From positions 1-64,000 of the forward strand of contig DASRDP010000009.1 in NCBI GenBank assembly GCA_035652535.1: DNA of 64,000 bases, given 5' to 3'. The first letter of the stretch is position 1, and each line of letters opens with the position of its first letter. This DNA is from Chloroflexota bacterium (lineage in GTDB: Bacteria > Chloroflexota > UBA6077 > SHYK01). A program made the position numbers and the translations under genes. This document shows positions 12,565 to 36,126 of this stretch, one piece after another. A model generated the notes under the pieces. It searched no databases. It saw only the letters and a program-made list of their open reading frames with translations, and was not told the origin of the DNA.

Positions 12565-14292
12565 GTGGGCACGGGGGACGATATTCGCGCCTCGGCTTTG
12601 CACCATCGCGTGCTCGGGAGCATTGCGGACGGCGTTACCGTTCAGGATGCCTCCGGTCGCATCATCTATGCGAACGACGCGGCCGCCCGCATCGTCGGGT
12701 GCGACTCGGCCGAGGAGATGGTCGCCACCCCTCCATCCGAGCTCCTCGCGCGGTTCGAGATCACCGACGAGGCGGGGAACGTCCTCCCCCCAAACCTTCT
12801 GCCAGGACGAATGATCCTGCAGGGCGCGGACCCGCCGGAGATATTGGTCCGCTATCGCCAGCGGGAGACCGGAGCCGAGCGTTGGTCGCTGCTGGCTGCC
12901 ACTCCGCTGGTCGCCCCGGACGGAACGATCGAGGGCGCGATCAACTCCTTCCGCGATGTGACGCAGGAGATCCTGGCCAGGAGGCGAGCGGAGGCGGCCG
13001 AGAGCGCGCTTCAATTTCTTTCCGCCGCCAGCCAGGAGCTGGCTTCCTCGCTCGACTACGAGACGACGCTGACGTCGGTCGCCAAGCTCGCGGTTCCCAG
13101 GCTGGCGGACTGGTGCGCCGTAGACCTTCTCGACGACTCGGGCTCCCTGCGACGGCTGGTGGTGGCGCACGTGGATCCGGCCAAGGTCGCCGTCGCCCAG
13201 GACCTGGCGCGGCGATACCCCATCGAGCTGCGTCCGCCGCGGGCTCTCACCGAAGGCGAGCCGGAGCTGTATTCGGAGATCACGGACGAGCTGTTGCAGT
13301 CGATGGTGTCGGACCCCGGGTTGCTCGGAGTGCTCCGGCAGCTCGGCCTCAAGTCGGCTATGGCGGTCCCCCTCGTTGCACGTGGGCGAACCCTTGGCGT
13401 GCTGACGTTCATCTCCGCCGAATCCGGTCGGAAATATGGCCCCAGCGACCTGGCCCTCGCAGCCGATCTGGGCAATCGCGCGGCGCTGGCGGTGGACAAC
13501 GCTCGGCTGCACCGCGAGGTCCAGCGAGCTGTCGAGACGCGGGACGAGTTTCTCGCCGCGGCCTCGCACGATCTCAAGAATCCGCTGACGGCCATCAAAG
13601 CGGCGGCGCAGCTCGCACGGATGCAGCTTGCTCGTGAAAGTCCCCGCGCACTCTCCCGCGTCGCGTCAGCTCTCGACACCATCGAAGGGTCCGCAAGCCG
13701 CATGGCCAGCCTCGCGGATGAGTTTCTCGACGTCGCTCGGCTGCAGCTGGGCCAGCCCCTCGATCTGGACCGCGAGCGGACGGACCTCGTGAGGCTCGTT
13801 CGCACGGTGGCAGACGATCTGGCGCGCACGGCGCAAAAGCATCGCATCTCCGTGGAAGCCGAGGACGAGCTGATCGGCGACTGGGACGTGGCCCGCCTGC
13901 AGCGGGTCTTGACGAACCTGCTCGAGAACGCCATCAAATACAGTCCTAACGGCGGCGAAGTCACGGTGACGGTCGAGCGGGAGGAGGGCGAGGTGCCGTT
14001 CGCACGGTTCACTGTGCGCGACCACGGCGTTGGCATACCCGAAACGGACCTGCCGCGGGTGTTCGAACGGTTTCGACGCGGGAGCAACGTGGTGGGGCGA
14101 ATCGGTGGCACCGGGATTGGCCTGGCCGGCGCCCGGCAGATCGTCGAGCAGCACGGCGGCGCGATGACCATCGAAAGCCGCGAGCACGAGGGGACCGCCG
14201 TGCGCGTTCGGCTTCCCATGATCGCAGATGAACCCCGGAGCGGGGCGCTCTCCCTCAGCGAAGGTCCCAGCGCTGGGTATCCGCCACCATGA
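12565..14292 (+). CDS. Soluble sensor histidine kinase (PAS-GAF-HisKA-HATPase)
   Basis: A 575-residue cytoplasmic sensor kinase with no membrane segment. In order it has a PAS domain (about 10-120, GVTVQDASGRIIYAND), a GAF domain (about 135-310, ending LAADLGNRAALAVDNARL), a HisKA dimer with phospho-acceptor His in AASHDLKNPLTAI, and an ATPase with N-box NLLENAIKYSPNGG, G1 DHGVGIP and G2 GTGIGLAGA. No response regulator is adjacent. I prefer the GTG at 12565, with GGAG six bases upstream and 147 bp to the divergent gene; in-frame starts at 12454 (GTG) and 12460 (ATG) are possible. Its 3' end overlaps the remnant at 14255 tail to tail. Confidence 0.87.
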   Translation: MGTGDDIRASALHHRVLGSIADGVTVQDASGRIIYANDAAARIVGCDSAEEMVATPPSELLARFEITDEAGNVLPPNLLPGRMILQGADPPEILVRYRQRETGAERWSLLAATPLVAPDGTIEGAINSFRDVTQEILARRRAEAAESALQFLSAASQELASSLDYETTLTSVAKLAVPRLADWCAVDLLDDSGSLRRLVVAHVDPAKVAVAQDLARRYPIELRPPRALTEGEPELYSEITDELLQSMVSDPGLLGVLRQLGLKSAMAVPLVARGRTLGVLTFISAESGRKYGPSDLALAADLGNRAALAVDNARLHREVQRAVETRDEFLAAASHDLKNPLTAIKAAAQLARMQLARESPRALSRVASALDTIEGSASRMASLADEFLDVARLQLGQPLDLDRERTDLVRLVRTVADDLARTAQKHRISVEAEDELIGDWDVARLQRVLTNLLENAIKYSPNGGEVTVTVEREEGEVPFARFTVRDHGVGIPETDLPRVFERFRRGSNVVGRIGGTGIGLAGARQIVEQHGGAMTIESREHEGTAVRVRLPMIADEPRSGALSLSEGPSAGYPPP

Positions 14293-14640
14293 GGTTACCT
14301 AGCGCCTTTCCCACGTGCGCATTGACGATGCTATTCGCGATTGCCTGGGGCTGGAGGCTCCGGAGGAGGCCCTGGACAGCGTCGGCGCCGGCCGCCTGAT
14401 TTACGAGCTCGAAGGCAGGGAACGTGGCGCGGTACTGACCATCGCGATTGAGCTGCGGCGGGATGACGAGGGGGTGGGCGTCCACCCCCACCTGGTGCCT
14501 GTAGTCCGCGGTCGCTTGCGCAAGGAGTCTGGTCGTATCCACCGACGTTACGTGCCGAATCTCGACCGAGAGGGGCTGACCGTCGCGGTCGACGAAGAGT
14601 CCCATCCGGACCCTTGCTGTAGCCGAGGTCTTCGACCGAA
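14255..14640 (-). pseudogene. Remnant of a family 5 (peptide-type) ABC solute-binding protein, C-terminal part
   Basis: The translated remnant aligns by eye with the intact protein at 26665. LGYSKGPDG in one frame matches AGYGKGQDG. After an apparent single-base insertion near 14600, LFVDRDGQPLSVEI...ATADYRHQVGV continues in another frame, up to RDGQYRATFPAFE. A segment of roughly 80 residues is then missing before the C-terminal ADTQRWDL, which matches the intact WNVADWEF. The gene has lost its whole N-terminal half. It joins a Rieske fragment at about 14640, marking a deletion junction. Confidence 0.72.
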
Positions 14641-14877
14641 ATACAGTGACGCGCGGCGGTGGGCGCAGTACTCGTCGAGCAGGCCGACTCGGCCGTCGGT
14701 GTCGCGAAACGCGACAAGATCCTCACCGAGGAGTCGCACGCGAACTGGCGGGTCGTCCTGGTTGGGAAGCTCGTCCGAGAGAACGGCAGGAAGCCAGTAG
14801 CACCGCATCAGCTCGCCCATGGGTGTCCCCGGACCACATTGCGTAAGCAGCTCGTTTTCTCGACGGGTCAGCATCAT
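14641..14877 (-). pseudogene. Rieske oxygenase remnant, N-terminal 80 residues only
   Basis: Reads MMLTRRENELLTQCGPGTPMG, then RVRLLGEDLVAFRDT, then YCAHRRASLYFGR, closely matching the first 80 residues of the intact Rieske genes at 901 and 2258. The frame breaks just after the first pair of cluster ligands, so the second Cys/His pair and the whole catalytic domain are missing. The start ATG (14877) overlaps the stop of the upstream xanthine-dehydrogenase-like gene by four bases (ATGA). The original gene was therefore probably translated together with that enzyme. The product, if made, cannot be functional. Confidence 0.85.
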
Positions 14878-17232: not shown

Positions 17233-20200
17233 TCAGGGCGATAGGGTGGCGAAGCCGGGCAGACCGCATGCGAGGTCGGAGTAGCCGGTGAGGCTGCCGC
17301 CGACGGTCGCACCCACCACGAAGCAGGTGAAGCCATTGGCTGGAGCGGTCGCGCTCGTGACCGTCGGCCCGAGCGATTGAAGCTGACCGCCGATCGGCAG
17401 CAGCAGATAGCCGTCGGGACTCGTGCCCGCGGGCGGCCCCCAACTCAGCGACGCTGTGGTGGACTGGTTGAGCCGTAGCGTGAAGCTCTGTGGCGCGCCG
17501 GTCGGGGTGCGAAATCCGACGACGGCGCAGAGGAGATCGGAAAGCTGCTGCGGGCTCGTCCCAAGGGGCAGCAGCACGTAGCAGTTGAGGCCCGCTGGAG
17601 CGGTCGTATCGAGAAAGGAGGTCGCGCTGGCGTCGAGCGGTAAGGCGGGCAAGACGGAGAGGGTCCCAGCGGCGAGGCGGGCGATCTGATAGCCTGTCTG
17701 GCCGGTCCCGGTCGACCACGACAGCCGGACGCCGTCGGCCGCGGATGAGATCCCGAAGCCCTTGCCCCCAATACCGGCCGTCGGCTGCGTCGCGGTCGCG
17801 CTCGGCACGCCCGTGGGGGATGCCGTCGCGCCCGGAACGGCGGTCGTCGTGGGTGTAGAGGTTGGGCCGCCCGAGGCAGCGATGTCGAACACCAGTACGC
17901 CTCCCGAATCCGTCATCGTCCCGGGGCCGGGGCTCACCGTCACCTGCATGCCTCCCGGAGCGGGCTGAGCCGCGACCGTGTACGACGCGCTCGGCGCCAG
18001 CCCCGTCACGATTTGGTGCGACGCGCCCGCGGGTGCGAGGTAGGTCATGCTTGCGAAGGGCGGGGCGAGGTCAACGGGAAAGAGGACGACCGTGCCGGCC
18101 AGCGCGGCGCCTTCGAACGCGGTCCCCCCACTGGATTGCACCAGGGCGACGCTGTCGGCCGCGGCGCCTGGGTCCGCGCCCTGGACGACGTCGAGGAATC
18201 GGACGCTCGTCGGCCCGCCGGGCGCATCCACGCGTACTCGATAGCTGTGGGGTGGAGTCGACCCGGGGATCTCACCCATCGGGTCATCGATCGCGACTTC
18301 TCCATATTGGGGCGTCACCGACTCCGCGGACACGGAGGCGCCGGCAGGAAGCAGATTGGTCAAGAAGAGCTGTTGCCCGGATGGTGTCGTTGCGCGCGCC
18401 TGGTTCCCGGTAACCGTGGCGAGGGTCGGCGTGTTGAGCCAGAAGCGCTTGAAACGATTGGCGGTCTGCGAGGCCGCCCGGTCGTAGACGACGATTCGGT
18501 CAGGCACGAGCCAGATGATCGAGCGGCTGGCATGGGTGATGTCGGAGAGGCCTTCGTATGTCGAGTTGTACAGGTTCGTCGCATCACCCAGCGCATAGAC
18601 GTATCCCGCGCCAAAACTGTGCGCCACGATTCGAGGGTCCGCGCTGGAGAGGAGGCCCCATTGCGATCCGCGCTGCCAGAGGAATGTCCGATAGTCGGAC
18701 GCGTCTCGCTGCGGCTGATCATTCTGAAGGGCGACGGAATTGTGGTAGTCGGTTGAGCCGTAGTCGAGGTCGTATCCCGTGCGCTCCTTGGTCAGCCATT
18801 CTCCGCGCCGATACAGCTCGAACTGATTGCCATCCTCGAGCTGATGGTCGATGCTGGCCCAGGCAAGCCGGTACGTGAACCACGTGGCGTTCTGGCCCCA
18901 GTCCGTTCGCGCCAGTATGCGGCCGGCCCCTGGCGCGAAAAAGGTGAGGGGGAGCGTTGAATGCGGATCGCTTCCCATGGATGCGGACGGGTCGAAGAGC
19001 ATGAAGTACAGGATGCAGTTGGTGAAAAAGTTCTCGTCGCGGGCGCGTCCGTTCAAGCCCGGCGCTCCGCCAGGCGGTGTGTTCACCTCGATCCACCGGA
19101 TGGCGCTCAGTCGGGCGGCGTTGCCCGTCCCGTAGTCGTAGAGTCCCAGCGGGGCAAACATGGCGATGAAGTCGGGCGTCCAGTAGTTCGTCCCGTCCCC
19201 GTACCACGCGGGAAGATACACGGGCTGTTGCAGCTCATGCGACTGCGCCTGGCGGGGGCTCAGCGAGTGCAGGTAGGCGGGAATGACGTCGTTCCAGAAG
19301 GAGTTGCCGGAGAAGGTGACCTGTGGCCCCCAGACCGTCGGATCGTCCTGGCCGGCGGTGTGGAGAGCAAGCAGGAACTGCGTCACGTACCCGACGGTCT
19401 GGGGGCTGTACTCAAATCCTTCGGGGAAGAGCCCGCCCGCGGTGTCGTTGCGCATGAGGTAGTCCACCATGTACAGCCATGCGCCGGTCGCGTTGCTCAG
19501 GTAGTTGCGCAGCGTGTTTCCCGGGTCGTCGGATGGATCCAGCGCCATCGCCATGAGACCGAGGTTCCGCATGTGCGCGGTGAAGTAATTGTTGCCCGCC
19601 CATCGCCGCGTCGCGGGGTCGGCAACGAGGGAAGGGCTGTTGACGACGCCGATCGGCTGTGGGATGTGGTAGCTGGACTGGACGATCTCTTGTGCCCAGC
19701 GGAGAAACACGGTTCGGATCGTCGCCTTGTCCGCGGCGGTGAAGTAGGGATAGGCCCAGTCCACGGTCAGGGCGAATCCTTCGCCGTACCAGCGCGATCG
19801 ATTTGAGTCGCAGGTGGCGAAGCACGGATCCCGAAAGGGCTGGCCGCTGGCAGGGCCCAGGACGGCCTGGTTCATGACGTACATCAGCAACGTTCGCGCG
19901 CGCTGCCCATAGTCGTCCTTGGTCGCCTGGTCCGTGCTGATCAGGGACAGGTAGGCAAAAAGCTCCGCATACATTTCGGTCGGGTACTGTTGGTATTCTC
20001 GCGTGCCGGTGTCGAGCCCCGGCACTCGACCGGCATCCATGTCGGACTTCGCCATGGTCGCGAGGGCGGACAGCCCTTCCTGGAAGATCGGATTTGAGGC
20101 CGTAGCCCACGAGCGGAGACGGGGCAGATCATCAGACCGGAGCCACAGGCGCGGGTGGCCGGTGACTGGGGTGATCTGCGGGGCGGTCTGCGGCGCCGGG

Positions 20201-20286
20201 AGGGCCGCCTCGACGCCGTTGCTCGGGGCCGACTGTGCGCCAAATGGCACCAAGACGAGAAGCGTGACGAGGATCAACGACCGCAT
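17233..20286 (-). CDS. Secreted heparinase II/III-like polysaccharide lyase with FnIII-like tail
   Basis: A 1017-residue secreted protein. The signal peptide spans 1-19 (cleavage at AQSA). Residues 40-430 look like the alpha/alpha toroid of chondroitin/alginate/heparin lyases (HPRLWLRSDDLPRLR, RWYGEGFALTVDWAYPYFT, GGLFPEGFEYSP). Residues 450-720 resemble the heparinase II/III beta-sandwich (IDHQLEDGNQFELYRRGEWL, DITHASRSIIWLVPDRIVVYD). After a Thr/Pro linker near 800, two FnIII-like modules follow (VRLSWSTGTGQTGYQI and ASLSWGPPAGTSPDGY). It probably degrades an acidic polysaccharide outside the cell; the substrate is unknown. It shares a 180-bp upstream region with the divergent kinase at 20466. 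Confidence 0.75.
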   Translation of the reverse strand: MRSLILVTLLVLVPFGAQSAPSNGVEAALPAPQTAPQITPVTGHPRLWLRSDDLPRLRSWATASNPIFQEGLSALATMAKSDMDAGRVPGLDTGTREYQQYPTEMYAELFAYLSLISTDQATKDDYGQRARTLLMYVMNQAVLGPASGQPFRDPCFATCDSNRSRWYGEGFALTVDWAYPYFTAADKATIRTVFLRWAQEIVQSSYHIPQPIGVVNSPSLVADPATRRWAGNNYFTAHMRNLGLMAMALDPSDDPGNTLRNYLSNATGAWLYMVDYLMRNDTAGGLFPEGFEYSPQTVGYVTQFLLALHTAGQDDPTVWGPQVTFSGNSFWNDVIPAYLHSLSPRQAQSHELQQPVYLPAWYGDGTNYWTPDFIAMFAPLGLYDYGTGNAARLSAIRWIEVNTPPGGAPGLNGRARDENFFTNCILYFMLFDPSASMGSDPHSTLPLTFFAPGAGRILARTDWGQNATWFTYRLAWASIDHQLEDGNQFELYRRGEWLTKERTGYDLDYGSTDYHNSVALQNDQPQRDASDYRTFLWQRGSQWGLLSSADPRIVAHSFGAGYVYALGDATNLYNSTYEGLSDITHASRSIIWLVPDRIVVYDRAASQTANRFKRFWLNTPTLATVTGNQARATTPSGQQLFLTNLLPAGASVSAESVTPQYGEVAIDDPMGEIPGSTPPHSYRVRVDAPGGPTSVRFLDVVQGADPGAAADSVALVQSSGGTAFEGAALAGTVVLFPVDLAPPFASMTYLAPAGASHQIVTGLAPSASYTVAAQPAPGGMQVTVSPGPGTMTDSGGVLVFDIAASGGPTSTPTTTAVPGATASPTGVPSATATQPTAGIGGKGFGISSAADGVRLSWSTGTGQTGYQIARLAAGTLSVLPALPLDASATSFLDTTAPAGLNCYVLLPLGTSPQQLSDLLCAVVGFRTPTGAPQSFTLRLNQSTTASLSWGPPAGTSPDGYLLLPIGGQLQSLGPTVTSATAPANGFTCFVVGATVGGSLTGYSDLACGLPGFATLSP

Positions 20287-22934: not shown

Positions 22935-22978
22935 CTTCGCCGATGCGCTCGTTGTGATGCTGGGAAATGGAGGCTGGC

Positions 22979-24148
22979 ATGGCGCGGACCTATCAACTGA
23001 TCTCCGCTGATTCGCATCTCGACCTCTCGCCCGAACGCTGGAAACACCGCGTTCCGGCTGCCCACCGCGACCTCGTCTCCGTTGTGCGACTGGAGTCGGG
23101 AGAGGACGCCGTCGTCGTGAACGGCGGCCGTCCGGCCCGGATCGGCCTGACGCGGAGCGTCGGCGTTCCGCGGGACCGTCTCCACGAGCAGATCCCTACG
23201 TTCGACAACAGCGGCGGGACCGGAAGTCCCGAGAGACGGATCGAGGAGCAGGACCAGGACGGCGTCGATGCGGAGATCCTTTTCTCGCGCATTCAGTCGA
23301 CACTCCGCCAGATTCCCGATGACGCGATCTTTTTGACCTGGGTGCGCGCCTACAACGATTACCTGGCCGAGGAGTACGCGGCCGTCGCGCCCGACCGCTT
23401 GATCCCGATGGGCGTCATCCCTACGACCGGCATCGACGACGCGGTGCGCGAATTAGAGCACTGCAGCTCCCTTGGCCTGAAGGGCGTCCTCATCGACCGA
23501 TTCCCAAACGGCAGGGGCGCGCCGCGTCCGGAAGATGATCGCTTCTGGGCGGCGGCCCTTGATTTGCGGATGCCGGTCACGCACCACACAAATGGCGGCA
23601 CAACCCGGATGACCGCGCACGATGAGCAGACGTTCACCTACGCCAGGGGCGTGCGCGAAGACGCGAGCGGATTCGGCCACGATCCCATGCGCCACTGGTT
23701 CTTTCGATTCTGCGGCGATGCCGCGTGCGCGCCGGTGCAGATGGCGTTTGCCGGGGTGTGGGACCGGTTTCCGGCCCTCAAGGTCTACTGGGCAGAGACG
23801 ATGATTGGCTGGCTCGAATACGCGCTCTGGCAGATTGACGACCATTACGAGCGCTACAAACACCTGGGCCGTGCGGTATACGGCCTCGACTGGCTGGAGC
23901 GCATGCCCAGCGAGTACATCAGGGACCACTGTCTGTGGGGATTCCTGTCGGACCCGGTCGGCGTGCGGAGGCGTGAGGCGGTCGGCGTCGAGAACGTCAT
24001 GTGGGGCAGCGATTTCGCTCACGCCGCGAGCGACTGGCCGAATTCGCGGAAGCTGATCGAGCGAGACTTCGTGGGCGTGCCCGACGACGAGCGCTACCAG
24101 ATGCTGGCGGGCAACGCCATCGAGTTCTTCCACCTTAACGATCAGTGA
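22979..24148 (+). CDS. Amidohydrolase (ACMSD-like, Amidohydro_2 family)
   Basis: A 389-residue metal-dependent TIM-barrel protein. The metal ligands expected of the family are visible: D10 and H12 in SADSHLDL, the His pair in PVTHHTNGG, and the late Asp in MWGSDFAHAASDWP. Members include hydrolases and decarboxylases such as ACMS and gamma-resorcylate decarboxylase, so the reaction cannot be fixed from sequence. The start is the ATG at 22979 with GGAGG five bases upstream; the ATG at 22967 overlaps that site. A hairpin follows at 24157. Confidence 0.87.
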   Translation: MARTYQLISADSHLDLSPERWKHRVPAAHRDLVSVVRLESGEDAVVVNGGRPARIGLTRSVGVPRDRLHEQIPTFDNSGGTGSPERRIEEQDQDGVDAEILFSRIQSTLRQIPDDAIFLTWVRAYNDYLAEEYAAVAPDRLIPMGVIPTTGIDDAVRELEHCSSLGLKGVLIDRFPNGRGAPRPEDDRFWAAALDLRMPVTHHTNGGTTRMTAHDEQTFTYARGVREDASGFGHDPMRHWFFRFCGDAACAPVQMAFAGVWDRFPALKVYWAETMIGWLEYALWQIDDHYERYKHLGRAVYGLDWLERMPSEYIRDHCLWGFLSDPVGVRRREAVGVENVMWGSDFAHAASDWPNSRKLIERDFVGVPDDERYQMLAGNAIEFFHLNDQ

Positions 24149-25504: not shown

Positions 25505-26668
25505 TTGCGGGATTCTCAGACACCCGACTTCGTGCACACGGGCCCGGGCACGCTCGGGGGGCGATACCTGCGGCTGTTCTGGCAACCGGTGTTTCGGGGG
25601 CGCGAGCTGGAGCCCGGCCGTGCCGTACCGATTCGGATCATGAGCGAGGATATGACTCTCTATCGGGGTGCCGGCGGGGACGCGCACCTCGTAGCCTTTC
25701 GCTGCGCCCACCGCGGCACGCAGCTTTCCGTCGGCTGGGTCGAGGGTGACTGCATCCGTTGCCGCTACCACGGATGGCTCTACGACGGCACGGGCCAGTG
25801 CGTTGAGCAGCCGGGCGAGGATCCGGCCCTGGCAGCCCGCGTGAAAATCCGCAGCTATCCGGTCCAGGAGTATCTCGGGCTCATCTTCGCGTACCTGGGC
25901 GAGGGCGACCCCCCGCCGATTCGGCGCTACCCGGACTTCGAACAACCGGGCGTGATCGATGTGGATCCGCCCGAGGTCTGGCCCTGCAATTTCTTCAACC
26001 GGCTGGACAACGATCCCGCGCACATCCCCTGGGCACATCGCGAATCGACCCGGCGCATGGGCCATGATCGAAGCGGTTCGATCGATGCAACGCATTATGT
26101 CGAGACGGACTGGGGCGTGGCGAGCTCGATCCCTGGCGGGTCGAGCAATCATTTCCACATGCCGAATACGAATCAGCTCAAGGTCCGACACCGCGTGCCC
26201 GGCTACGAGCGCCTCTGGGAATATCGACTCGTTTTCCACGTCCCGATGGACGATGAGCACTGCATTGCCTTCGACGTGAACCTCACCCCCGGTCTCGCCG
26301 GGGAAGAGGGGGAGCGATTTAGCCGACTACGGCGCGAGATCCAAGATCCGGAAGCGGAAGCTCCCCTGGCGATCGCTGAGGCGATCTTGGCGGGGAAGAT
26401 GCGCATCGAAGATATGGATCCGGAGCTGAGCTACTACAAACAATTCTGGATCGAAGATTACGTCACGCAGGTCGGCCAGGGCCCCATAGCGGATCGGACC
26501 AGCGAGCGACTCGTCCGCACCGACACGAAGCCGATTCTCAAGCGCAAGATCTGGGAGCGCGAGCTTCGGGCCCTGGACGAAGGCCGCCCGCTGAAGGAGT
26601 GGACGTCGCCCGCGCTCTTCGCGTCCAGCGAGGAGCGCTCGCGCGCGACGGAAGCCCGCGCGAGGTGA
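25505..26668 (+). CDS. Rieske 2Fe-2S ring-hydroxylating oxygenase, alpha subunit (divergent type)
   Basis: A 387-residue oxygenase only distantly like those at 901 and 2258. The Rieske ligands are C67-x-H69 (CAHRGTQ) and C86-x2-H89 (CRYHGW). The iron site is D170-x2-H173-x4-H178 in NDPAHIPWAH. I chose the TTG at 25505 because GAGGAG lies seven bases upstream; a TTG at 25490 has no such site. Its stop overlaps the GTG of the next gene by three bases (GTGA), so it is translationally coupled to a solute-binding protein. That partner suggests its substrate or inducer is taken up from outside. Confidence 0.87.
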   Translation: MRDSQTPDFVHTGPGTLGGRYLRLFWQPVFRGRELEPGRAVPIRIMSEDMTLYRGAGGDAHLVAFRCAHRGTQLSVGWVEGDCIRCRYHGWLYDGTGQCVEQPGEDPALAARVKIRSYPVQEYLGLIFAYLGEGDPPPIRRYPDFEQPGVIDVDPPEVWPCNFFNRLDNDPAHIPWAHRESTRRMGHDRSGSIDATHYVETDWGVASSIPGGSSNHFHMPNTNQLKVRHRVPGYERLWEYRLVFHVPMDDEHCIAFDVNLTPGLAGEEGERFSRLRREIQDPEAEAPLAIAEAILAGKMRIEDMDPELSYYKQFWIEDYVTQVGQGPIADRTSERLVRTDTKPILKRKIWERELRALDEGRPLKEWTSPALFASSEERSRATEARAR

Positions 26669-28398
26669 AGGGCCCTCGTTTCCTCATTTCCGCCCTGCTC
26701 ATGGTGCTGGCGGCCTGCGCGCCCAACGCCGGAGGGTCCGCGCCCAAGGACGGGAAGGTCGACCGCGATTCGGGTGACAATCGCACCCTGGTGCTCATAA
26801 CGCGGACGGAGCCCGAGACGCTCGCGGGTACGCCCATCACCACGCTCACGGCATCGACCGGCAGCAAGCGGCGCCTCTTTAACGCTGCGCTCAGCCTGCT
26901 TGATGGCGACGGACGTGCGCAGCCATACCTCGCCGAATCGCTCCCCCAGCTCGGCACCGACGACTGGCGCGTGTACGCGGACGGCCAGATGGACACCACG
27001 TACCACCTCCGAGCTGGGCTCCTATGGCACGACGGCCAGCCGCTCACGGCTGAGGACTTCGCGTTCGCGTGGCGCGTCTACGCCACTCCTGAGCTTGGCC
27101 GATCTCATTCGGAGCCCATCAGCTCGATGTCGGGAGTCGAGGCGCTCGACGATCGCACGCTGGTCGTGCACTGGTTGCAGCCCTACCCGGACGCCGGAGT
27201 GCTCCAGGGCGTCCAGGCGTCAGGAAATTCGGGGCCGAGCTTTGCGCCGCTGCCCAAGCACATCCTCGCGAGCGCCTACGAGCAGCAGCTCGATACCTTC
27301 GCAACGCTGCCCTTCTGGACCGTGCAGTACGTGGGAGCCGGTCCCTATCGCGTGGATCGGTGGGAGCCGGGCGCTTTCGTCGACGGCGTGGCGTTTGACG
27401 AGCATGCGCTTGGTCGCCCGAAGATCGAGCGCGTCCAGCTCCGCTTCTCGGCGGACTCGAACGTGGTCCTGGCGGCGATGCTTGCTGGAGAGGCTCACCT
27501 TCCTGTGGACGACTCGATTCGGATCGAGGGCGGATTGGTGCTGAAACAAGCCTGGGCCGCGCGCAACGCGGGGGCTATTGAGTTTCTCCCCCGGGACTAC
27601 CGATTTATCGACTTTCAATACCGACCCGAATACGCGCGCCCGAAGGCGCATCTGGACGTGCGGGTGAGACAAGCGATCGCGCGCGGCATCGACAAAGAGA
27701 CGATAAACGAGACGCTTTTTCACGGCGTCGGGATCCCAACAGACACGATGATCTACCCGACGGCGGACTACTTTCCCGCCCTGGACGCTGCGGTGACAAA
27801 GTACGCATTCGATCCTCGCCAGACCGAGCGACTCATGGCGGAGGCTGGCTACGGGAAAGGGCAGGACGGGTTCTATCTGGACGAGACGGGCAGTCGAATG
27901 ACCTTCGAGATCACCGGGACCCAGTCGCCGCAAAATGCCAGTGAGCGGAGCATCCTGGCCGACGGTTGGCGAAAGCTGGGACTGGACACCGACGAGGCCG
28001 AATTCGCGGGCCAGGAGATCCGGGACGGACAGCGATTGGCAACGTTTCGAAGCATGTACTCGACGGGCTCATCGGCGGGCATCCCGTCACTCATCCGGCT
28101 TCAGAGTGACAATATCTCCGGTCCCGAGAACCGGTGGACGAGGTCCAACCGCGGTGGATGGTCGGACCCGGACTACGACCGGATGGCCACCGCTGTTCAG
28201 TCGACGCTCGACCGAGCGGAGCAGGGCCAGCGCGTGGTGGAGGCGCTGCGGATCCTGACGGCACAAGCCGGGATCATCTCGCTCTACTTCAACCCAACGG
28301 TGGTGGTCTTCCCCGCGACAATCAGGGGGATGCGGATTCGCGCTCCCGAGTCGGAGCCGACTTGGAATGTTGCTGACTGGGAGTTCGCCGCACCGTAA
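26665..28398 (+). CDS. ABC transporter solute-binding lipoprotein, family 5 (peptide/nickel type)
   Basis: A 577-residue extracytoplasmic binding protein. From the coupled GTG start, residues 1-18 form a lipoprotein signal ending in lipobox LAAC (C18). SBP_bac_5 landmarks include AQPYLAESLP, TYHLRAGLLWHDGQPLTAEDF, DVRVRQAIARGIDKE and a C-terminal domain ending at WNVADWEF. Family ligands include oligopeptides, nickel and other small molecules. No permease or ATPase gene of this transporter is nearby. It must use unlinked membrane parts or act as a binding or sensing protein. A hairpin and then a Rieske remnant follow. Confidence 0.9.
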   Translation: MKGPRFLISALLMVLAACAPNAGGSAPKDGKVDRDSGDNRTLVLITRTEPETLAGTPITTLTASTGSKRRLFNAALSLLDGDGRAQPYLAESLPQLGTDDWRVYADGQMDTTYHLRAGLLWHDGQPLTAEDFAFAWRVYATPELGRSHSEPISSMSGVEALDDRTLVVHWLQPYPDAGVLQGVQASGNSGPSFAPLPKHILASAYEQQLDTFATLPFWTVQYVGAGPYRVDRWEPGAFVDGVAFDEHALGRPKIERVQLRFSADSNVVLAAMLAGEAHLPVDDSIRIEGGLVLKQAWAARNAGAIEFLPRDYRFIDFQYRPEYARPKAHLDVRVRQAIARGIDKETINETLFHGVGIPTDTMIYPTADYFPALDAAVTKYAFDPRQTERLMAEAGYGKGQDGFYLDETGSRMTFEITGTQSPQNASERSILADGWRKLGLDTDEAEFAGQEIRDGQRLATFRSMYSTGSSAGIPSLIRLQSDNISGPENRWTRSNRGGWSDPDYDRMATAVQSTLDRAEQGQRVVEALRILTAQAGIISLYFNPTVVVFPATIRGMRIRAPESEPTWNVADWEFAAP

Positions 28399-29594: not shown

Positions 29595-30743
29595 GTGACG
29601 CTCGACGTGTTTCGCGTAGGCTCGCAGCTTGCCGCCATGGGGCAAGAGCTGCGTGACCATCGCGAGGCGCGGGCCGCGCGCCTGAGCGCCGCGCGCGGCG
29701 TCTTCGCCCGCCTCTCCGACGATTGGGAGCGCATGGCGTCGGCCGCGCGCTCGGGAGATCGATCTGGGGCGGCGCCGCTCGGGCCGCTCAGCTCAGCCTC
29801 CGACCGAGGCGCTGCGCCCCCGTCGTATCTCGTCATGGCAACAGATGGGTCGACGATTGAGCCCGATCGGCACGGCCCCGCGATGTGCGCCCTCGTGAAC
29901 ATCGGTCGTGCACGGATCCGCTACGGTGACGCCCCTGAGGCCGAGCTCGATTCGGAGCCAATCCTGTACTTCCGGCGAGAGGAGCTATTCATTGAGCAAG
30001 GCGGCCGTCGGGTCCTCCTGCGCCAGCGCCTCCTGGATGCGCGCCGAAGCGTTTTGGAGATGGAGGCCCTCAGCGAGATGGCTCGGGACGCCAATCCACT
30101 GGCGTTGCCGAGCGTTGCGCTGGCGGACGGGCTGCTCACGATCTGGCGCGAGGATTGGGCGACCCAGGACGGGGACGAGGTGATTGCCCAGTTCAACCGG
30201 GCGCTGGCGCGGATCGCCGACGTGAAATTGCCGCTTGCCGCGTACGTCAGCAATCCGTCGAGCCATTGGGTCGTGGACCTCTTGCGGTCGGCGGTCCAGT
30301 GCGTCAAAGGGTGCGGTGCGCTGTGCCAGGAGACGGGCTGTGTCTTCGGCGGACTCGTCGACGCGGAGCTGTATCGCTTCCTGCAGCCGGGCCAGGCGTC
30401 GACGCTTTTTGAGGTTGTCGGTCCGGACCAGCATCGTTACGATGAGCGCGTGCGATCCCACTTCTTCTACCTCAACGTCGGGCGGGAGATTGTTCGCGTT
30501 GAGGTGCCTGCCTGGGTGGCCAGGGATGAGGACGCGCGGCGGCTCGTCCATAATGTGGTGTTCGACCAGGCGGAGCGGGGCTTGGGCTATCCGGTCGCGC
30601 TTGCACGCGCCCATGAGCAAGCCGTCATCAGCGGGCGGGACCGTCTGGCGTTCCAGCAGCTCGTCATCGAATCCCTGACGCGAGCAGGCTTGGGCGCCGG
30701 TGTGTCGGAGAAGCAGGCGAGCAAAACGCTCAGGGCAGTCTAA
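29595..30743 (+). CDS. nurA: NurA-type 5'-3' nuclease
   Basis: A 382-residue NurA-domain nuclease. In archaea NurA works inside the HerA hexamer to resect double-strand ends. Family motifs are visible: first catalytic Asp in ATDGS (D84), second Asp in ALADGLL (D178), AYVSNP near 217, and the late conserved His in YPVALARAHEQAV. A central Cys cluster (CVKGCGALCQETGC, about 236-249) is a notable extra and could bind metal. The start is the GTG at 29595 with GGGAG eight bases upstream. It is the first gene of the run that continues through herA, mre11 and rad50, which strongly supports the assignment. Confidence 0.85.
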   Translation: MTLDVFRVGSQLAAMGQELRDHREARAARLSAARGVFARLSDDWERMASAARSGDRSGAAPLGPLSSASDRGAAPPSYLVMATDGSTIEPDRHGPAMCALVNIGRARIRYGDAPEAELDSEPILYFRREELFIEQGGRRVLLRQRLLDARRSVLEMEALSEMARDANPLALPSVALADGLLTIWREDWATQDGDEVIAQFNRALARIADVKLPLAAYVSNPSSHWVVDLLRSAVQCVKGCGALCQETGCVFGGLVDAELYRFLQPGQASTLFEVVGPDQHRYDERVRSHFFYLNVGREIVRVEVPAWVARDEDARRLVHNVVFDQAERGLGYPVALARAHEQAVISGRDRLAFQQLVIESLTRAGLGAGVSEKQASKTLRAV

Positions 30744-30820
30744 GCGCCAGGACGTGAGAGTTCGCGGGCGTGGCGCAGGTGCTTCTGCGAAACCGATGAT
30801 TCCTACGCGGTCCCTGCCTG

Positions 30821-31498
30821 TTGAGATTGGAGTCCAATCGCATCGTGGAGACACAGAACGGATCGGCGGCCACGACGAGCCGGCGAGCTGGCGAAGTTGT
30901 GGGCACCAGCGTGGCGGAATTCGAGGCCCAGGCATCGAAGCTGCACGCCGCACCGCCCATCGGCACGCTCGTTTCCGTGCGCTTGGATCCCATGACCGTC
31001 TACGCGGTCGTCGCGGGATCCTGGACGGACGGGATCGACGTCGGCGCGCGGCCGGTGCTGCGGGGACGCGACGGGTGCGAAGACGCCCAGATCTATCAGG
31101 CGCATCCTGATCTGGAGTTCGTCCTTCGGACGTGCTTTCGCAGCCTGGTCGTCGGCTTCCGCGATGGATCGGGCCGTCATCAGTACCTTCCTCCCATTGC
31201 CGTGCCGATCCACTACTCCGTGACCGTGTGCTCCCACGACGAGGTCGAGCGCTTTGCCGCGGAGATGCACTACTTTCGTACGTTGCTGGAAGCGCAGAAC
31301 GCGCCGAACGAGGACGTGATCGCGACCCACATCCGGCTGGTCGCGTCGATCAGCTCGCCGCCGCGCGGACCCTCCGAGTACCTGGTACGGGCCGGACGAG
31401 AAGTGGCGACGCTTCTTCGCGACGATCATCAGCGCCTTCGCGCGATTTTGCAGCGCATTCGCCCGGCCGAGACCTCGTCGTCGTCCATGCTGGCATGA
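30821..31498 (+). CDS. HAS-barrel-like protein of the NurA-HerA operon
   Basis: A 225-residue protein with no catalytic motif. Residues 45-135 look like a small beta barrel of HAS type (PIGTLVSVRLDPMTVYAVVAG, ARPVLRGRDG, then QYLPPIAVPIHYSVTVCS), similar in style to the N-terminal barrel that precedes HerA ATPase domains. The C-terminal 70 residues are mostly helical (LVRAGREVATLLRDDHQRLRAIL). It may be a structural partner of HerA or NurA; this rests on fold impression and position. It sits 77 bases after nurA, and its TGA overlaps the next ATG by four bases. The start (TTG 30821 or GTG 30845) is uncertain. Confidence 0.6.
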   Translation: MRLESNRIVETQNGSAATTSRRAGEVVGTSVAEFEAQASKLHAAPPIGTLVSVRLDPMTVYAVVAGSWTDGIDVGARPVLRGRDGCEDAQIYQAHPDLEFVLRTCFRSLVVGFRDGSGRHQYLPPIAVPIHYSVTVCSHDEVERFAAEMHYFRTLLEAQNAPNEDVIATHIRLVASISSPPRGPSEYLVRAGREVATLLRDDHQRLRAILQRIRPAETSSSSMLA

Positions 31499-32445
31499 TC
31501 GAAGCGCACGGCCTCATCAAGCGCTTCGGCGAGAAGCGAGCGCTCAATGGGATGACCTTCTCCGTTCCGGAGGGGCGAATCTATGGCCTGCTCGGCCCGA
31601 ACGGCGCAGGGAAGACCACGACGATGCGGATCCTCGCCTGTCTGCTCAATCCCGACGGCGGAAGCGCATGGGTCGCGGGCGTTGACGCGGCGCGGAACCC
31701 GGAGAAGGTGAGGTCGACCATCGGCATCTTGACGGAGGTCCCCGGTCTCTATGACCGGCTCAAGGCCGGCGAGTATCTGGACTTCTTTGCGCAGATGTAC
31801 GGATTGCAGGGGTCGCAGCGACGGGCGCGAATCGAGGGCCTGATGCGGCTACTGGATATCTGGGATGCGCGGAACGAGCGGCTCCGCAGCTTCTCCAAGG
31901 GGATGAAGCAAAAGGTCGCCATCGCGCGCGCCCTGATCCACAGGCCCCAGGTCCTGCTATTCGACGAGCCCACCGCGGCCCTGGATCCGGAAGCGGCCAA
32001 GACCGTGCGCGACCACATCGTCGATTTGATTCGCACCGAGCGGTGCACCGTGCTGCTCTGCACGCATAATTTGGCGGAGGCGGAGCAGCTGTGCTGGAGG
32101 ATCAGTATTGTCCAGCAGGGGAGATCCATCGCCGAGGGGACGCCGATCGAGCTCAAGGCGATGGCTGCTCAGGCGGTGCGATTGTCCCTGCGCGCGGTTC
32201 TGCCCAACTACGTGGCGGTGGTCCACGCGACGCCGGGCGTGGAGGCGCTGGCTACCGAGAACGGCACGATCACATACCGCACAACGGACGCCGCGTCTGT
32301 CAATCCCCGGGTGGTGCGCCAGCTCGTCGAAGCCGGGGCAGACGTTTTGTCGTTGCAGCTCGAGGCGATGGGCCTCGAAGACGCGTATCTCCACGTGATG
32401 AGAAAGGGGGAAAGTGACCCGAACACTCCTCGTGACCCGACGTGA
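31495..32445 (+). CDS. ABC transporter ATP-binding protein embedded in the repair operon
   Basis: A 316-residue ABC-2 type exporter ATPase. Walker A is GPNGAGKTT (about 34-42), the signature is the variant SFSKGMKQ (about 132), Walker B is LLFDEPTAALDP (about 155), and the switch His is in CTHNL. A C-terminal regulatory segment of about 100 residues follows, as in daunorubicin- and bacitracin-type exporters. The ATG at 31495 overlaps the previous stop (ATGA). The gene overlaps the permease by 32 bases. The pair forms a standard two-part exporter of unknown cargo, expressed from inside a DNA-repair operon. Confidence 0.9.
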   Translation: MIEAHGLIKRFGEKRALNGMTFSVPEGRIYGLLGPNGAGKTTTMRILACLLNPDGGSAWVAGVDAARNPEKVRSTIGILTEVPGLYDRLKAGEYLDFFAQMYGLQGSQRRARIEGLMRLLDIWDARNERLRSFSKGMKQKVAIARALIHRPQVLLFDEPTAALDPEAAKTVRDHIVDLIRTERCTVLLCTHNLAEAEQLCWRISIVQQGRSIAEGTPIELKAMAAQAVRLSLRAVLPNYVAVVHATPGVEALATENGTITYRTTDAASVNPRVVRQLVEAGADVLSLQLEAMGLEDAYLHVMRKGESDPNTPRDPT

Positions 32446-33229
32446 GCTGACCGAAGTCGTTCGGGACTTCAACCTCGTCGGGCCCATCTTCATCCTCCCC
32501 ACCCTCATGGCGCTGATCGTCTCGCTTGGCCTGTACGGGACGTCAACCGTCGACACGGGGACGGTCAGCATCGTCGTCGGCAGCGTCGGTGTCGAGCGCA
32601 TGCCACCCGCATGGTCCAACGCCTTTCTGCAGCTGAGCGAGGCCGACCAGGCGAAGACGGTCGGGAAAGCGCTCAAAGCGCTCACCCTTCCGCTGTTCTG
32701 GATCGTCACGGTCGCGCTCACGGCGACGGTGGCGGCCGACAGCTTCGTCGGCGAGAAGGAGCGCGACACCCTCGAGCCGTTGCTGGCGACGCCCATCGGC
32801 AACGGCGCCCTCTTTTTCGGCAAGCTCATGACCGCGGTCGTCCCAGCCGTCCTCGGGACGTGGTGGGGGACTGCGATCCTGGCGGTCGGGATCTGGTTCT
32901 CCGGCAACCAGTATTTCCCGCACCTGCTCCTCGCCGACCCGGAATGGACGGCATCGACCTTCATCATCGTGCCACTGATGGCCCTGATGTCAGCGAGCGT
33001 GGCTGCCCTGATCTCCACGCGGGTAGCGACGTATCGCGCAGCCTATCAGCTCAACGGACTCATCGTTCTTCCCATCGTCGCCTTTATGATTCCGCAGACG
33101 GTGGTGCTCTTCTTCCTCACCCGCCACGCCCTGTGGGTCCTGGGCACCGCGTTCGTGGCGCTCGACGTTTTTCTGATCGCAACCGCCATTCGGTTTTTCG
33201 ACCGCGAGCGGCTCCTGGGCGGGAGATGA
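32414..33229 (+). CDS. ABC-2 type transporter permease embedded in the repair operon
   Basis: A 271-residue membrane protein with about six helices, near residues 21-41, 92-112, 130-165, 180-200, 215-237 and 240-262. A cytoplasmic loop between the first two carries the typical EKERDTLEPLLATPI segment of ABC-2/NatB-like permeases, where the subunit contacts its ATPase. The start is a GTG at 32414 inside the end of the ATPase gene. Its TGA overlaps the herA ATG (ATGA). Cargo is unknown. Confidence 0.87.
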   Translation: MTRTLLVTRRELTEVVRDFNLVGPIFILPTLMALIVSLGLYGTSTVDTGTVSIVVGSVGVERMPPAWSNAFLQLSEADQAKTVGKALKALTLPLFWIVTVALTATVAADSFVGEKERDTLEPLLATPIGNGALFFGKLMTAVVPAVLGTWWGTAILAVGIWFSGNQYFPHLLLADPEWTASTFIIVPLMALMSASVAALISTRVATYRAAYQLNGLIVLPIVAFMIPQTVVLFFLTRHALWVLGTAFVALDVFLIATAIRFFDRERLLGGR

Positions 33230-34884
33230 ACCATTCCATGAACCCGAACGAAGGTCGCCCGCTCGCCGTCGTCGTCGATGGCACGCTCACCAAAGGGATC
33301 ACGGCGAACTTGGACGCCGACTGCTCGGTCGAAGATGTACGGGTGGGGCAATTCGTCAAGATTCACGGCGAAAAGTACGACTTCTTCTGTCTCGTCACGG
33401 ACGTCATGCTCAACGCCGCGAACGCCGACGTGCTGGCGAACCCGCCGGACCCCAGCGATGCGTTCACGCGCCTGGTGCTCCAAGGAACGAACCTCTTCGG
33501 GTCGGTCTCCCTGCAGCCGATGCTGATGCTCGGCAAGATGCCGGCGGCGGAGACCGACCCGTCGGAGCTGGGCCAGGCCCTGCCGGTTCGGACGGTTCCC
33601 GTCCACTTCGCGCCGGTCAGCCTCGCAGGTCGCGCCGATTTCGATCGCGTGTTCGCTCAGCCGGGGGATTCCTCCTGGCAAGTCGGCACGCCCAGGGACA
33701 TGGATATTCCGATCCTCCTCGACCTCGAACGCGTCGCCGAACGCTCCAACGGGGTTTTTGGCAAGTCTGGCTCCGGTAAGAGCATGCTCACCCGCCTCCT
33801 CCTCTGCGGGCTCATCCGGAGCGACCGGGCGGTGAACCTTATCTTCGACATGCACAGCGAGTATGCGTGGCCGAAACCTGACCGGGGCGCGGTGCTCCGG
33901 AGCCTGACCGACCTCTTCGGTCGCCGTGTTGCCGTGTACACCCTCAAGTCGAACCGCCCCCGCCCGATCGGCCACAAGTCGGATGGGGACATCGCCATCG
34001 GTATGAACGAGATCACGCGCGACGACGTCGTGCTGCTGTCGGAGCTGCTGAACCTGAACGAAACGGCGCTCGAGACCATTCATCTCCTCGAAACCGAGTT
34101 CAGGGAGGGGTGGCTTCTGAATCTCCTAGAAATGGACACGCCGGCCATCAAGGACTTTGCCGATCGGGCCGGAGCGCACCCGGCCGCCGTGGGGGCGCTG
34201 AAGCGCAAGCTGAGCCAGCTGCAGCGACTGGATTTCGTGATTTCGGAGTTCCGTTCGCCGGAGGCGTCGTCCATCAGCCACATCGTCCGAAGCCTCTCGA
34301 GCGGGCGCAGCGTCGTCCTAGCGTTCGATCAGGAGGGTGACCTCCTCCAATACATGCTCGTCGCCAACATCATCACGCGGCGCATCCACGACAAGTGGCG
34401 GACCGACTCGCAGCTCGCGGACGCCGAGAATCGCGAACGTCCACGGCAGCTCGTCGTGACCATTGAGGAGGCGCACAAGTTCTTGAGCCCGAGCGCTGCC
34501 CGGCACACAAGCTTCGGCCAGATCGCCCGGGAGCTGCGCAAGTTCAACGTGACGCTCCTCGTCGTCGATCAACGTCCGTCCGGCATTGACCCTGAAGTGC
34601 TCTCACAGATTGGCACGCGATTCAGCTGCCAGCTCAACGACGAGAACGACATCGCGGCAATTCTCGCCGGCGTGAGCGGCGCCTCCCATCTCCGGTCCGT
34701 CCTCGCGTCATTGGATAGCCAGCAAGAAGCCATCCTGCTGGGACACGCGGTGCCGATGCCGGTGGTGGTGAAGGTCCGCACGATCGACGAAGCTTTCTAC
34801 GCGGACGCGACGGCGAGCGATAAGCGCATGGACCTTCCCACCGGCCGCGGTCTGCTCGACATGGCCACGCTTCCGGACGATTGA
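33226..34884 (+). CDS. herA: HerA-type DNA translocase ATPase
   Basis: A 552-residue HerA/DUF87 hexameric ATPase. The N-terminal HAS barrel is at about 11-130 (AVVVDGTLTKGITANLD, VGQFVKIHG). Walker A GKSGSGKS is at 179-186, followed by an LIFDMHSEYAWP strand. Walker B with its catalytic acid is at about 410-418 (LVVTIEEAHKF). The sensor region VDQRPSGIDPEVLSQIGTRF is typical of the family. HerA pumps DNA and powers NurA during end resection. The ATG at 33226 overlaps the permease stop; a second ATG at 33238 is possible. Its stop overlaps the mre11 ATG (TGATG). Confidence 0.92.
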   Translation: MNHSMNPNEGRPLAVVVDGTLTKGITANLDADCSVEDVRVGQFVKIHGEKYDFFCLVTDVMLNAANADVLANPPDPSDAFTRLVLQGTNLFGSVSLQPMLMLGKMPAAETDPSELGQALPVRTVPVHFAPVSLAGRADFDRVFAQPGDSSWQVGTPRDMDIPILLDLERVAERSNGVFGKSGSGKSMLTRLLLCGLIRSDRAVNLIFDMHSEYAWPKPDRGAVLRSLTDLFGRRVAVYTLKSNRPRPIGHKSDGDIAIGMNEITRDDVVLLSELLNLNETALETIHLLETEFREGWLLNLLEMDTPAIKDFADRAGAHPAAVGALKRKLSQLQRLDFVISEFRSPEASSISHIVRSLSSGRSVVLAFDQEGDLLQYMLVANIITRRIHDKWRTDSQLADAENRERPRQLVVTIEEAHKFLSPSAARHTSFGQIARELRKFNVTLLVVDQRPSGIDPEVLSQIGTRFSCQLNDENDIAAILAGVSGASHLRSVLASLDSQQEAILLGHAVPMPVVVKVRTIDEAFYADATASDKRMDLPTGRGLLDMATLPDD

Positions 34885-36119
34885 TGAAGGTCGTCCACAC
34901 TGCGGACCTGCACATCGGCATGGAGACCCACGGCCCAATCGATCCGCAGACCGGCTTGCCGCGTCGCCTCGACGATTTTCTGGCCTCGCTCGACCGGATC
35001 GTGGACGCGGCCATCGATGGCCGCGCCGATCTCGTCGTCATGGCGGGCGACATTTACAAGTCGCGAGACCCCTCCCCGACTCACCAGCGGGCGTTCGCCC
35101 GTCGGATTCTGCGACTGGCGAGCGCACGCGTTCCGGTGTTTCTGCTGGCCGGCAACCACGACGTGCCCAATGCGGTGAGTCGCGCGACGTCCATCGACAT
35201 CTTCCACGAGCTGGAAGTGGCAGGGGTCACGGTCGGCCGCCAGCCCGACTGCCACCGGGTCGACACGCCATCGGGCCCGGCCATCATCGCCGCGCTTCCC
35301 TGGATCACCCGAAGTGTCGTCGTGGCGCACGAGGGCGCTCAAAATCTCTTGTCGAGCGATTTCGAGCGCTACATCGCCGACTTTGTGGTCAAGGTCGTGG
35401 GGGCGTTGGGCGAGCGCGTCGAGGAGATGCGCGGCGATCCCGAGTTGCGGACGGCGCCAGCCATCCTCGTCGCTCACCTGCACGCCCAGGAGGCGCGAGA
35501 CGGCGCGGAGCGAATGCTCACCGTTGGGAATGACCCGCTGATTCCTGCCAGCGTGCTCACCGTACCGCCTTTCGACTACGTTGCCCTTGGCCACATCCAT
35601 GCGCACCAGTCCTTCGGTTCGCAGCCACCCGCCGTCTATCCGGGCAGCATCGAACGCGTGAACTTCGGTGAGGAGCTGGAGGACAAAGGATACGTCGTGG
35701 CCGAAGTCTCGAAAGGCCACGCCGAGTGGGAGTTCTTCCCCGTTCCCGCGCGGCGCTTCCTCACGATTCCAGTCAAAGCGACGGGCGATGACCCGACGGC
35801 CGTGGCGCTGCGGCAGATCGATCGCCATCGGCCGGAGATCGATGACGCGGTGGTGCGCCTGCGAGTCGAGCTGACGGCGCAAAATGAGGCGCTCTTCGAC
35901 GAGGGGCGCGCGCGGGCCGCCTTGGCCGGCGCCTTCTGGATCGCCGAGATCTCGCGGCAGGTCGATCGACCGGCGCGCACCCGGTTCGCGGGCGCGTCGG
36001 TGGAGGGCAAGACGCCCATGGAGCTACTCGACGAATTCTTCTCGGCGAAACAGCTTCCGTCCGACGAACGGGAGCGCCTCCGCTCGTACGCGCAGCGCCT
36101 GATTCAGTCCAGGCTTTGA
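34884..36119 (+). CDS. Mre11/SbcD-type DNA double-strand-break nuclease
   Basis: A 411-residue calcineurin-like exonuclease/endonuclease subunit. All metal-site motifs are intact: DLH (D8, H10), GD (D56) in AGDIYKS, GNHD (N91, H92), then the His in AILVAHLHAQE and the GHIH motif in VALGHIHAHQ. The C-terminal 90 residues (ARAALAGAFWIAEISRQVDR) would carry the Rad50-binding helices. It is coupled to herA by a TGATG overlap and followed seven bases later by rad50. Together they form the complex that recognises and trims broken DNA ends. The archaeal naming is chosen because of the herA-nurA context. Confidence 0.93.
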   Translation: MKVVHTADLHIGMETHGPIDPQTGLPRRLDDFLASLDRIVDAAIDGRADLVVMAGDIYKSRDPSPTHQRAFARRILRLASARVPVFLLAGNHDVPNAVSRATSIDIFHELEVAGVTVGRQPDCHRVDTPSGPAIIAALPWITRSVVVAHEGAQNLLSSDFERYIADFVVKVVGALGERVEEMRGDPELRTAPAILVAHLHAQEARDGAERMLTVGNDPLIPASVLTVPPFDYVALGHIHAHQSFGSQPPAVYPGSIERVNFGEELEDKGYVVAEVSKGHAEWEFFPVPARRFLTIPVKATGDDPTAVALRQIDRHRPEIDDAVVRLRVELTAQNEALFDEGRARAALAGAFWIAEISRQVDRPARTRFAGASVEGKTPMELLDEFFSAKQLPSDERERLRSYAQRLIQSRL

Positions 36120-36126
36120 GCCTAGC

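Follow-up and report, generated by a model that had tools for sequence, protein, structure and literature searches.

Orphan solute-binding proteins have long been a puzzle in proteobacteria. Those of the tripartite tricarboxylate transporter (TTT, or Bug) family are over-represented in Bordetella and Rhodoplanes, which hold hundreds of them and few membrane partners (PMC5994714). In Comamonas sp. E6 the gene of the TTT protein TphC, which serves terephthalate uptake, lies within the dioxygenase operon, and the genes of the membrane subunits TpiBA are unlinked (PMC8556258). In Pseudomonas aeruginosa five binding proteins, DppA1-A5, are known for one DppBCDF importer (PMC4206461). Ring-hydroxylating dioxygenases are expanded in the SAR202 Chloroflexi, many of them annotated as phthalate 4,5-dioxygenase (PMC6946804, PMC6123686), with up to 62 Rieske copies per genome reported (PMC6946804); the dipeptide transport families COG0747, COG0601 and COG1173 are among the correlated families named there (PMC6946804, PMC6123686). 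Finally, transporter genes cluster with ligXa, which encodes the 5,5'-dehydrodivanillate O-demethylase of Sphingobium SYK-6 (PMC6874591). Here we describe a gene pair on a 64,000-nucleotide stretch of DNA (the window), contig C9 of a draft Chloroflexota genome (G000), in which the gene of a Rieske non-heme iron oxygenase overlaps that of a family 5 solute-binding lipoprotein.

The pair resembles TphC/TpiBA in that a binding-protein gene stands beside the gene of a Rieske-type dioxygenase and the membrane subunits are encoded elsewhere. This likeness is one of arrangement only: TphC belongs to the TTT family, whereas here we deal with a family 5 lipoprotein, tens of pairings per genome and several enzyme classes. 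The Bordetella and Rhodoplanes sets likewise consist of one binding-protein family with many members and few membrane partners, but they belong to another protein family and phylum, and a systematic pairing with Rieske or other ring enzymes is not described in the accessible text on them (PMC5994714). P. aeruginosa is comparable in having several family 5 type binding proteins per Dpp importer; its five bind peptides and four of them are encoded near transporter genes, whereas here 24 to at least 149 are dispersed and often lie beside catabolic genes. The large Rieske expansion is common to SAR202, whose highest reported count of 62 copies compares with 132 matches here (fragments counted in) and 150 in a genome of the same family (G001); orphan binding-protein pairing is not described in the accessible SAR202 texts. 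With LigXa the link is its LigXa_C domain, present in 95 of the 113 complete Rieske copies scanned in G000; in SYK-6, however, uptake is by a TonB receptor together with an MFS carrier, and the Rieske copy of the pair is without LigXa_C. Our searches of open-access literature gave no report of family 5 binding proteins paired with Rieske genes in Chloroflexi. The novelty lies in the involvement of family 5 proteins, in the size of the repertoire and in its linkage to enzymes.

The overlapping gene pair

A first-pass annotation of the window had proposed that the oxygenase stop and the binding-protein start overlap in GTGA, and direct reading of the letters confirms this (Table 1). The oxygenase frame opens with TTG and closes with TGA at 26666-26668; the binding-protein frame opens with GTG. 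A longer in-frame start at 26599, chosen by the gene caller, is possible for the latter, but we set the start at 26665 because of the lipobox, LAAC, which from this GTG follows a charged end and a hydrophobic run. We infer that the two genes are co-translated.

The oxygenase scored 66.2 bits against Pfam Rieske (cut-off 20.3) and the binding protein 170.6 bits against SBP_bac_5 (cut-off 32.4). The latter is the only Pfam family matched by the binding protein, which excludes a TphC-type TTT (TctC/Bug) protein; its solved relatives include binders of peptides, nickel, heme and oligosaccharides. In the oxygenase, residues C67, H69, C86, H89, H173, H178 and D318 were invariant among 14 homologues, and both the CxH..CxxH cluster site and the 2-His-1-carboxylate iron site are kept. 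Across 113 Rieske paralogues the cysteines and cluster histidines were invariant, and H173, H178 and D318 were conserved in at least 90%. Its structure model (mean pLDDT 80) gave as best Foldseek matches the isophthalate and phthalate dioxygenases 9ina, 7fhr, 9ioy and 7v28, with 22-25% identity and TM scores to the query of 0.67-0.73. By modelled fold and closeness of sequence the enzyme is thus placed in the phthalate/isophthalate dioxygenase type, its substrate being predicted only. LigXa_C was not matched by this oxygenase (Pfam, E 0.001), so that it drops out as a candidate LigXa-type O-demethylase.

The annotation had also stated that neither permease nor ATPase genes lie near the pair. 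This proved correct: contig C9 gave no BPD_transp_1 or oligo_HPY match and therefore holds no complete Dpp/Opp importer locus. The ABC genes at 31495-33229, 3 kb downstream of the pair, encode an ABC ATPase and an ABC-2 type membrane protein, and were rejected as the missing transporter since they are of the ABC-2 type. A remnant with the same pairing, noticed in the same annotation, was recovered at 14255-14877, where a Rieske start lies beside a binding-protein piece in the order of the intact pair, the middle being lost. The binding-protein piece alone matched no Pfam family at E 0.01.

Pairing in the genome and its relatives

G000 is a draft of 4.45 Mb in 168 contigs, 98.3% complete and with 4.56% contamination. 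For SBP_bac_5 there were 199 first-look candidates and 133 listed matches, the window copy standing outside this list. Rieske and binding-protein sites were covered by 114 stretches totalling 1.33 Mb, and the 1194 genes called in them include 130 Rieske genes and 175 binding proteins, pieces included, 149 of them complete. With a relaxed lipobox pattern and upstream extension, 128 of these 149 carried a lipobox, compared with 0/116 Rieske and 15/344 unlabelled control genes, which supports the earlier view of an exported binding protein. A strict first test had given 86/149, owing to the strict motif and to wrong starts.

Importer genes are few. BPD_transp_1 matched 31 times, and score and a small Dpp profile together singled out three Dpp-like permease pairs, on contigs C34, C36 and C64; the profile was seeded with the C34 and C36 genes, so that their scores are circular, and C64 lies outside the seeds. 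The four oligo_HPY ATPases form two Dpp-type pairs, on C34 and C104 (our label ABC_BCA also covers the C34 Dpp ATPases). Neither a binding protein nor a Dpp ATPase was found within 1.5 kb of the C64 permease pair; the gene beside it we take, from its translation by eye, to be glyA. Of 134 binding proteins, only 4 had a BPD_transp_1 match at a distance of 2.5 kb or less; at 5 kb the number rose to 8. The unlinked permeases assumed in the annotation thus agree with what we observe, Dpp-type permease and ATPase genes being few and mostly unlinked in G000. At C36:2076-7199 a Rieske gene lies divergent from a binding protein, which is followed by DppB and DppC, with no Dpp ATPase in the stretch; the gene after DppC is presumably dnaA-like, judged by eye.

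We counted as a pair an adjacent Rieske and binding-protein gene on the same strand with a gap of at most 400 bp, the remnant counting as one. G000 has 39 such pairs, with the binding protein first in 21 and the Rieske gene first in 18. When labels were shuffled over all fetched stretches the mean was 20.6 pairs and 39 was reached in 0/2000 shuffles; within each stretch the mean was 23.8 and 39 was reached in 1/2000. The observed number is therefore 1.6-1.9 times the shuffled expectation. For gaps of at most 50 bp, 20 pairs were observed compared with 10.0 and 11.3 after shuffling (20 reached in 4 and 9 of 2000). The pairing is real, yet half or more of the raw count is due to local density. 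The gap is 5-373 bp in 34/39 pairs. Apart from the window pair and the remnant, overlaps occur in three pairs (4, 4 and 13 bp), in each of which the binding protein precedes the Rieske gene. A binding protein lay within 120 bp of 29/130 Rieske genes and of 51/676 unlabelled genes (Fisher p 2.7e-6). In any orientation it adjoined 48/130 Rieske genes; 39 arrangements were tandem, 8 divergent and 2 convergent.

The history of the pairs was analysed for 34 of the 39, five being dropped for short sequences. Among nearest Rieske paralogues the partner binding proteins were 0.385 identical, compared with 0.325 expected (0/5000 permutations). Strict co-evolution of both families was retained for recent duplicates and rejected over all pairs (Mantel r 0.02). 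Gene order was the same in 24/49 comparisons of Rieske pairs at 45% identity or more, and in 5/15 at 55% or more. The closest paralogue of the window Rieske protein (on C93, 59%) has its binding protein directly upstream, in reverse order. Comparison of these sequences indicates that some pairs have been copied together and reshuffled later. The recurrent unit envisaged in the first-pass annotation thus stands as regards recurrence; a fixed two-gene unit was rejected, because the two orders are about equally frequent (21 and 18) and mixed even between similar Rieske pairs.

Adjacent binding proteins were found for 11/38 Amidohydro_2, 7/25 cupin-like (u104), 5/14 UbiD and 3/10 LigB genes, as well as for 2/13 GFO and 2/12 SDR genes. 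A Rieske-specific role was rejected, since the first four families are paired at similar rates; the rates for non-Rieske and unlabelled genes are biased upward, as these genes come only from stretches that had been selected for the presence of Rieske or binding-protein genes. The name cupin-like for family u104 reflects weak similarity to gentisate dioxygenase and vicilin. Labels were given by one representative per cluster. Of the 34 largest clusters without a label we scanned 20, so that 676 genes are still unlabelled. A labelled catabolic gene stands in the same directon as 45 of the 129 listed binding proteins recovered by gene calling. Another family, u122 (9 members, for example L127:5676-6647), encodes proteins of 324 residues with weak SsuA-type similarity, and 4 members adjoin Rieske genes; the family looks like 4,5-dihydroxyphthalate decarboxylase, an enzyme that would suit a pathway of the phthalate type. 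As for electron-donor domains, the whole of G000, with about 130 Rieske oxygenases, gave no FAD_binding_6 match at E 0.001; Fer2 matched only 13 times, always weakly and within open frames of 180-410 residues.

Four genomes of the same family (G001-G004, 76-88% complete; G003 88%, G004 76%) and four order-level relatives (G005, G011, G012 and G014) were searched. Besides the 150 Rieske matches of G001 there were 103 in G002 and 9 in G003; SBP_bac_5 matches numbered at least 62 in both G001 and G002, 24 in G003 and 32 in G004. The oligo_HPY ATPases numbered 5, 5, 2 and 2 in G001 to G004. In G003 and G004, with 9 and 4 BPD_transp_1 matches, there is one strong Dpp-like permease pair each and one ATPase pair each, on contigs other than that of the permeases. 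Pairing was sampled with models built from G000, which split some of the genes: G002 and G001 contributed 20 stretches apiece, taken from the top of the Rieske ranking, and G011 and G005 contributed 20 together. An adjacent binding protein on the same strand was found for 8/35 Rieske matches in G002 and 8/30 in G001, so that the pairs are not unique to one genome and recur in two other genera of the family; in G011 and G005 the figure was 0/24. One run in G002 reads Rieske, binding protein, DppB, DppC and Dpp ATPase, and thus places a pair beside a Dpp importer. Of the order-level genomes, G012 has 36 binding proteins with 108 BPD_transp_1 matches and G014 has 38 with 129, and a listed permease lies within 2.5 kb of 8/9 and 16/23 of their listed binding proteins, respectively (best matches only). 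Adjacent permeases in relatives, which the annotation regarded as contrary to its proposal, are hence usual in these two genomes outside the family and rare within it (4/134 here), and lost permease linkage marks the family. In a GTDB scan, Deltaproteobacteria-titled loci with close Rieske relatives held u104, UbiD, SDR, u122 or NAD-binding genes, and no binding protein there was matched by the G000 profiles.

Proposed transport through shared importers and other explanations

The adjacency of oxygenases and binding proteins that lack a transporter of their own suggests few shared importers and a very large, swappable set of binding proteins for steps of aromatic breakdown. The lipoprotein would be exported and tethered outside the membrane, where it may bind an organic ligand; the likeliest is an aromatic carboxylic acid that derives from plants or humic matter. 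The ligand would then pass to a Dpp-type ABC importer that serves several binding proteins and has its genes elsewhere in the genome (DppBC on C64 and DppDF on C104, others on C34 and C36), and inside the cell the neighbouring Rieske oxygenase would hydroxylate or demethylate the ring. The linked amidohydrolase, UbiD, cupin-like and LigB families may act on related steps. New specificities would arise by duplication of binding proteins and their reshuffling among catabolic operons, and not by duplication of whole transporters. By analogy, our best reading is a counterpart of TphC/TpiBA that involves a different family of transporters and is far more extensive. We give a probability of roughly 0.55 to the view that the lipoproteins deliver aromatic or humic substrates to Dpp-type importers which are few and shared, and that the enzyme encoded next to each acts on what is imported. 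Its extension to the whole family, which we offer more tentatively and at somewhat less than even odds, would be an aromatic diet of hub-and-spoke form: one core Dpp-type importer with unlinked permease and ATPase genes, served by tens to at least 149 lipoproteins, many encoded beside a ligand-processing enzyme (oxygenase, amidohydrolase, decarboxylase or cupin-like), so that a binding-protein gene would mark the substrate of its operon.

Several observations weigh against delivery to shared importers. Four of them equally favour mere co-residence, in which both kinds of gene expand within common adaptive islands, peptides are what the binding proteins import and adjacency has no function: label shuffling alone attains half or more of the pair count; Rieske and partner identities are uncorrelated over all pairs (703/2000 in the Mantel test); 51 of the 129 listed binding proteins are solitary, a further 30 standing with unlabelled genes only and 3 with other binding proteins only; and G004 has its 32 binding proteins and no Rieske match, so that oxygenase supply is not the general reason for orphan binding proteins. 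Among the eight closest paralogues of the window Rieske protein (45-59%), moreover, four have a same-strand adjacent binding protein and one has the window order. The oligo_HPY search would miss Dpp ATPases without this domain, and the model of the window binding protein (mean pLDDT 42, from 4 sequences) is too poor for a judgement of its pocket. Both the ligand class and transport by orphan binding proteins are inferred. That none of the 15 LLM genes in the stretches has a binding-protein neighbour is a further point on this side; it also speaks against co-residence, as do the values for kinase (0/6) and MFS (0/7) genes, small numbers throughout, when ring-processing families are paired. With the excess of same-strand pairs and their tandem bias, the joint inheritance of close pairs and the recurrence in two other genera, we regard co-residence without function as unlikely.

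The excess of 149 complete binding proteins over very few Dpp-type permeases and ATPases would also fit surface receptors or scavengers that do not transport, sense aromatics and signal, for example, via histidine kinases; sensing is among the possible roles named for Rhodoplanes TTT proteins in the accessible text of PMC5994714. Such a role is improbable here, as no histidine kinase (0/6) or response regulator (0/6) gene adjoined a binding protein among the labelled genes within the stretches. Very improbable indeed is an artefact of the draft, in which gaps in the assembly hide permease genes, or contaminants or mixed strains raise the counts. The number of contigs and the contamination value given above leave some room for it, and the complete C34 Dpp set may be foreign, its lipoprotein start looking actinobacterial (an impression only); but the genome is nearly complete, the G+C of the stretches keeps to 0.631-0.691, and oligo_HPY ATPases are also few (2-5 each) in G001-G004, though these are less complete. 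A median identity of 0.30 among the paired binding proteins shows that they are not strain duplicates.

The orphan puzzle of proteobacteria thus recurs in a further phylum and with a different protein family, in an extreme ratio and with a linkage to enzymes. If delivery to shared importers is true, a binding protein could be used as bait for the substrate of the neighbouring enzyme, and simple binding assays would allow substrates to be assigned to many Rieske oxygenases in bacteria that are represented chiefly by metagenomes. It would also bear on the uptake route of recalcitrant aromatic carbon.

Further features of the contig

Table 1. Features of the window, with positions counted from its first letter
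Feature	Position	Strand	Remarks
Rieske non-heme iron oxygenase, predicted phthalate/isophthalate-dioxygenase type fold	25505..26668	+	387 residues; Pfam Rieske
Family 5 extracellular solute-binding lipoprotein	26665..28398	+	577 residues; SBP_bac_5, lipobox LAAC
GTGA overlap, oxygenase stop / binding-protein start	26665..26668	+	read directly
Remnant: Rieske N-terminal piece	14548..14877	-	136 bits, model positions 20-100 of 423; Pfam Rieske 32.7 bits
Remnant: binding-protein piece, C-terminal half	14255..14605	-	50.7 bits, model positions 391-473 of 564
Amidohydro_2 protein	22967..24148	+	Pfam 76.3 bits; upstream of pair

The Amidohydro_2 gene is separated from the pair by a gene on the opposite strand. 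A same-strand binding-protein gene directly adjoins 6/7 of the best listed paralogues of its product. It shares a functional vocabulary with the pair.

Two further Rieske genes lie near the contig start, at 2-901 (-) and 2258-3523 (+), the latter with LigXa_C, and a Thioredoxin_9 (thioredoxin-like) gene stands between them at 1069-1719. Directly upstream of the remnant is a gene of the molybdopterin xanthine-dehydrogenase type at 14874-17129 (-). The gene at 17233-20286 (-) encodes a secreted-looking protein of 1017 residues with no Pfam match at E 0.001. On the other side of the pair, 29595-38685 (+) holds a NurA gene, then the ABC-2 type ABC genes and after them genes that we take by eye to be HerA-, Mre11- and Rad50-like.

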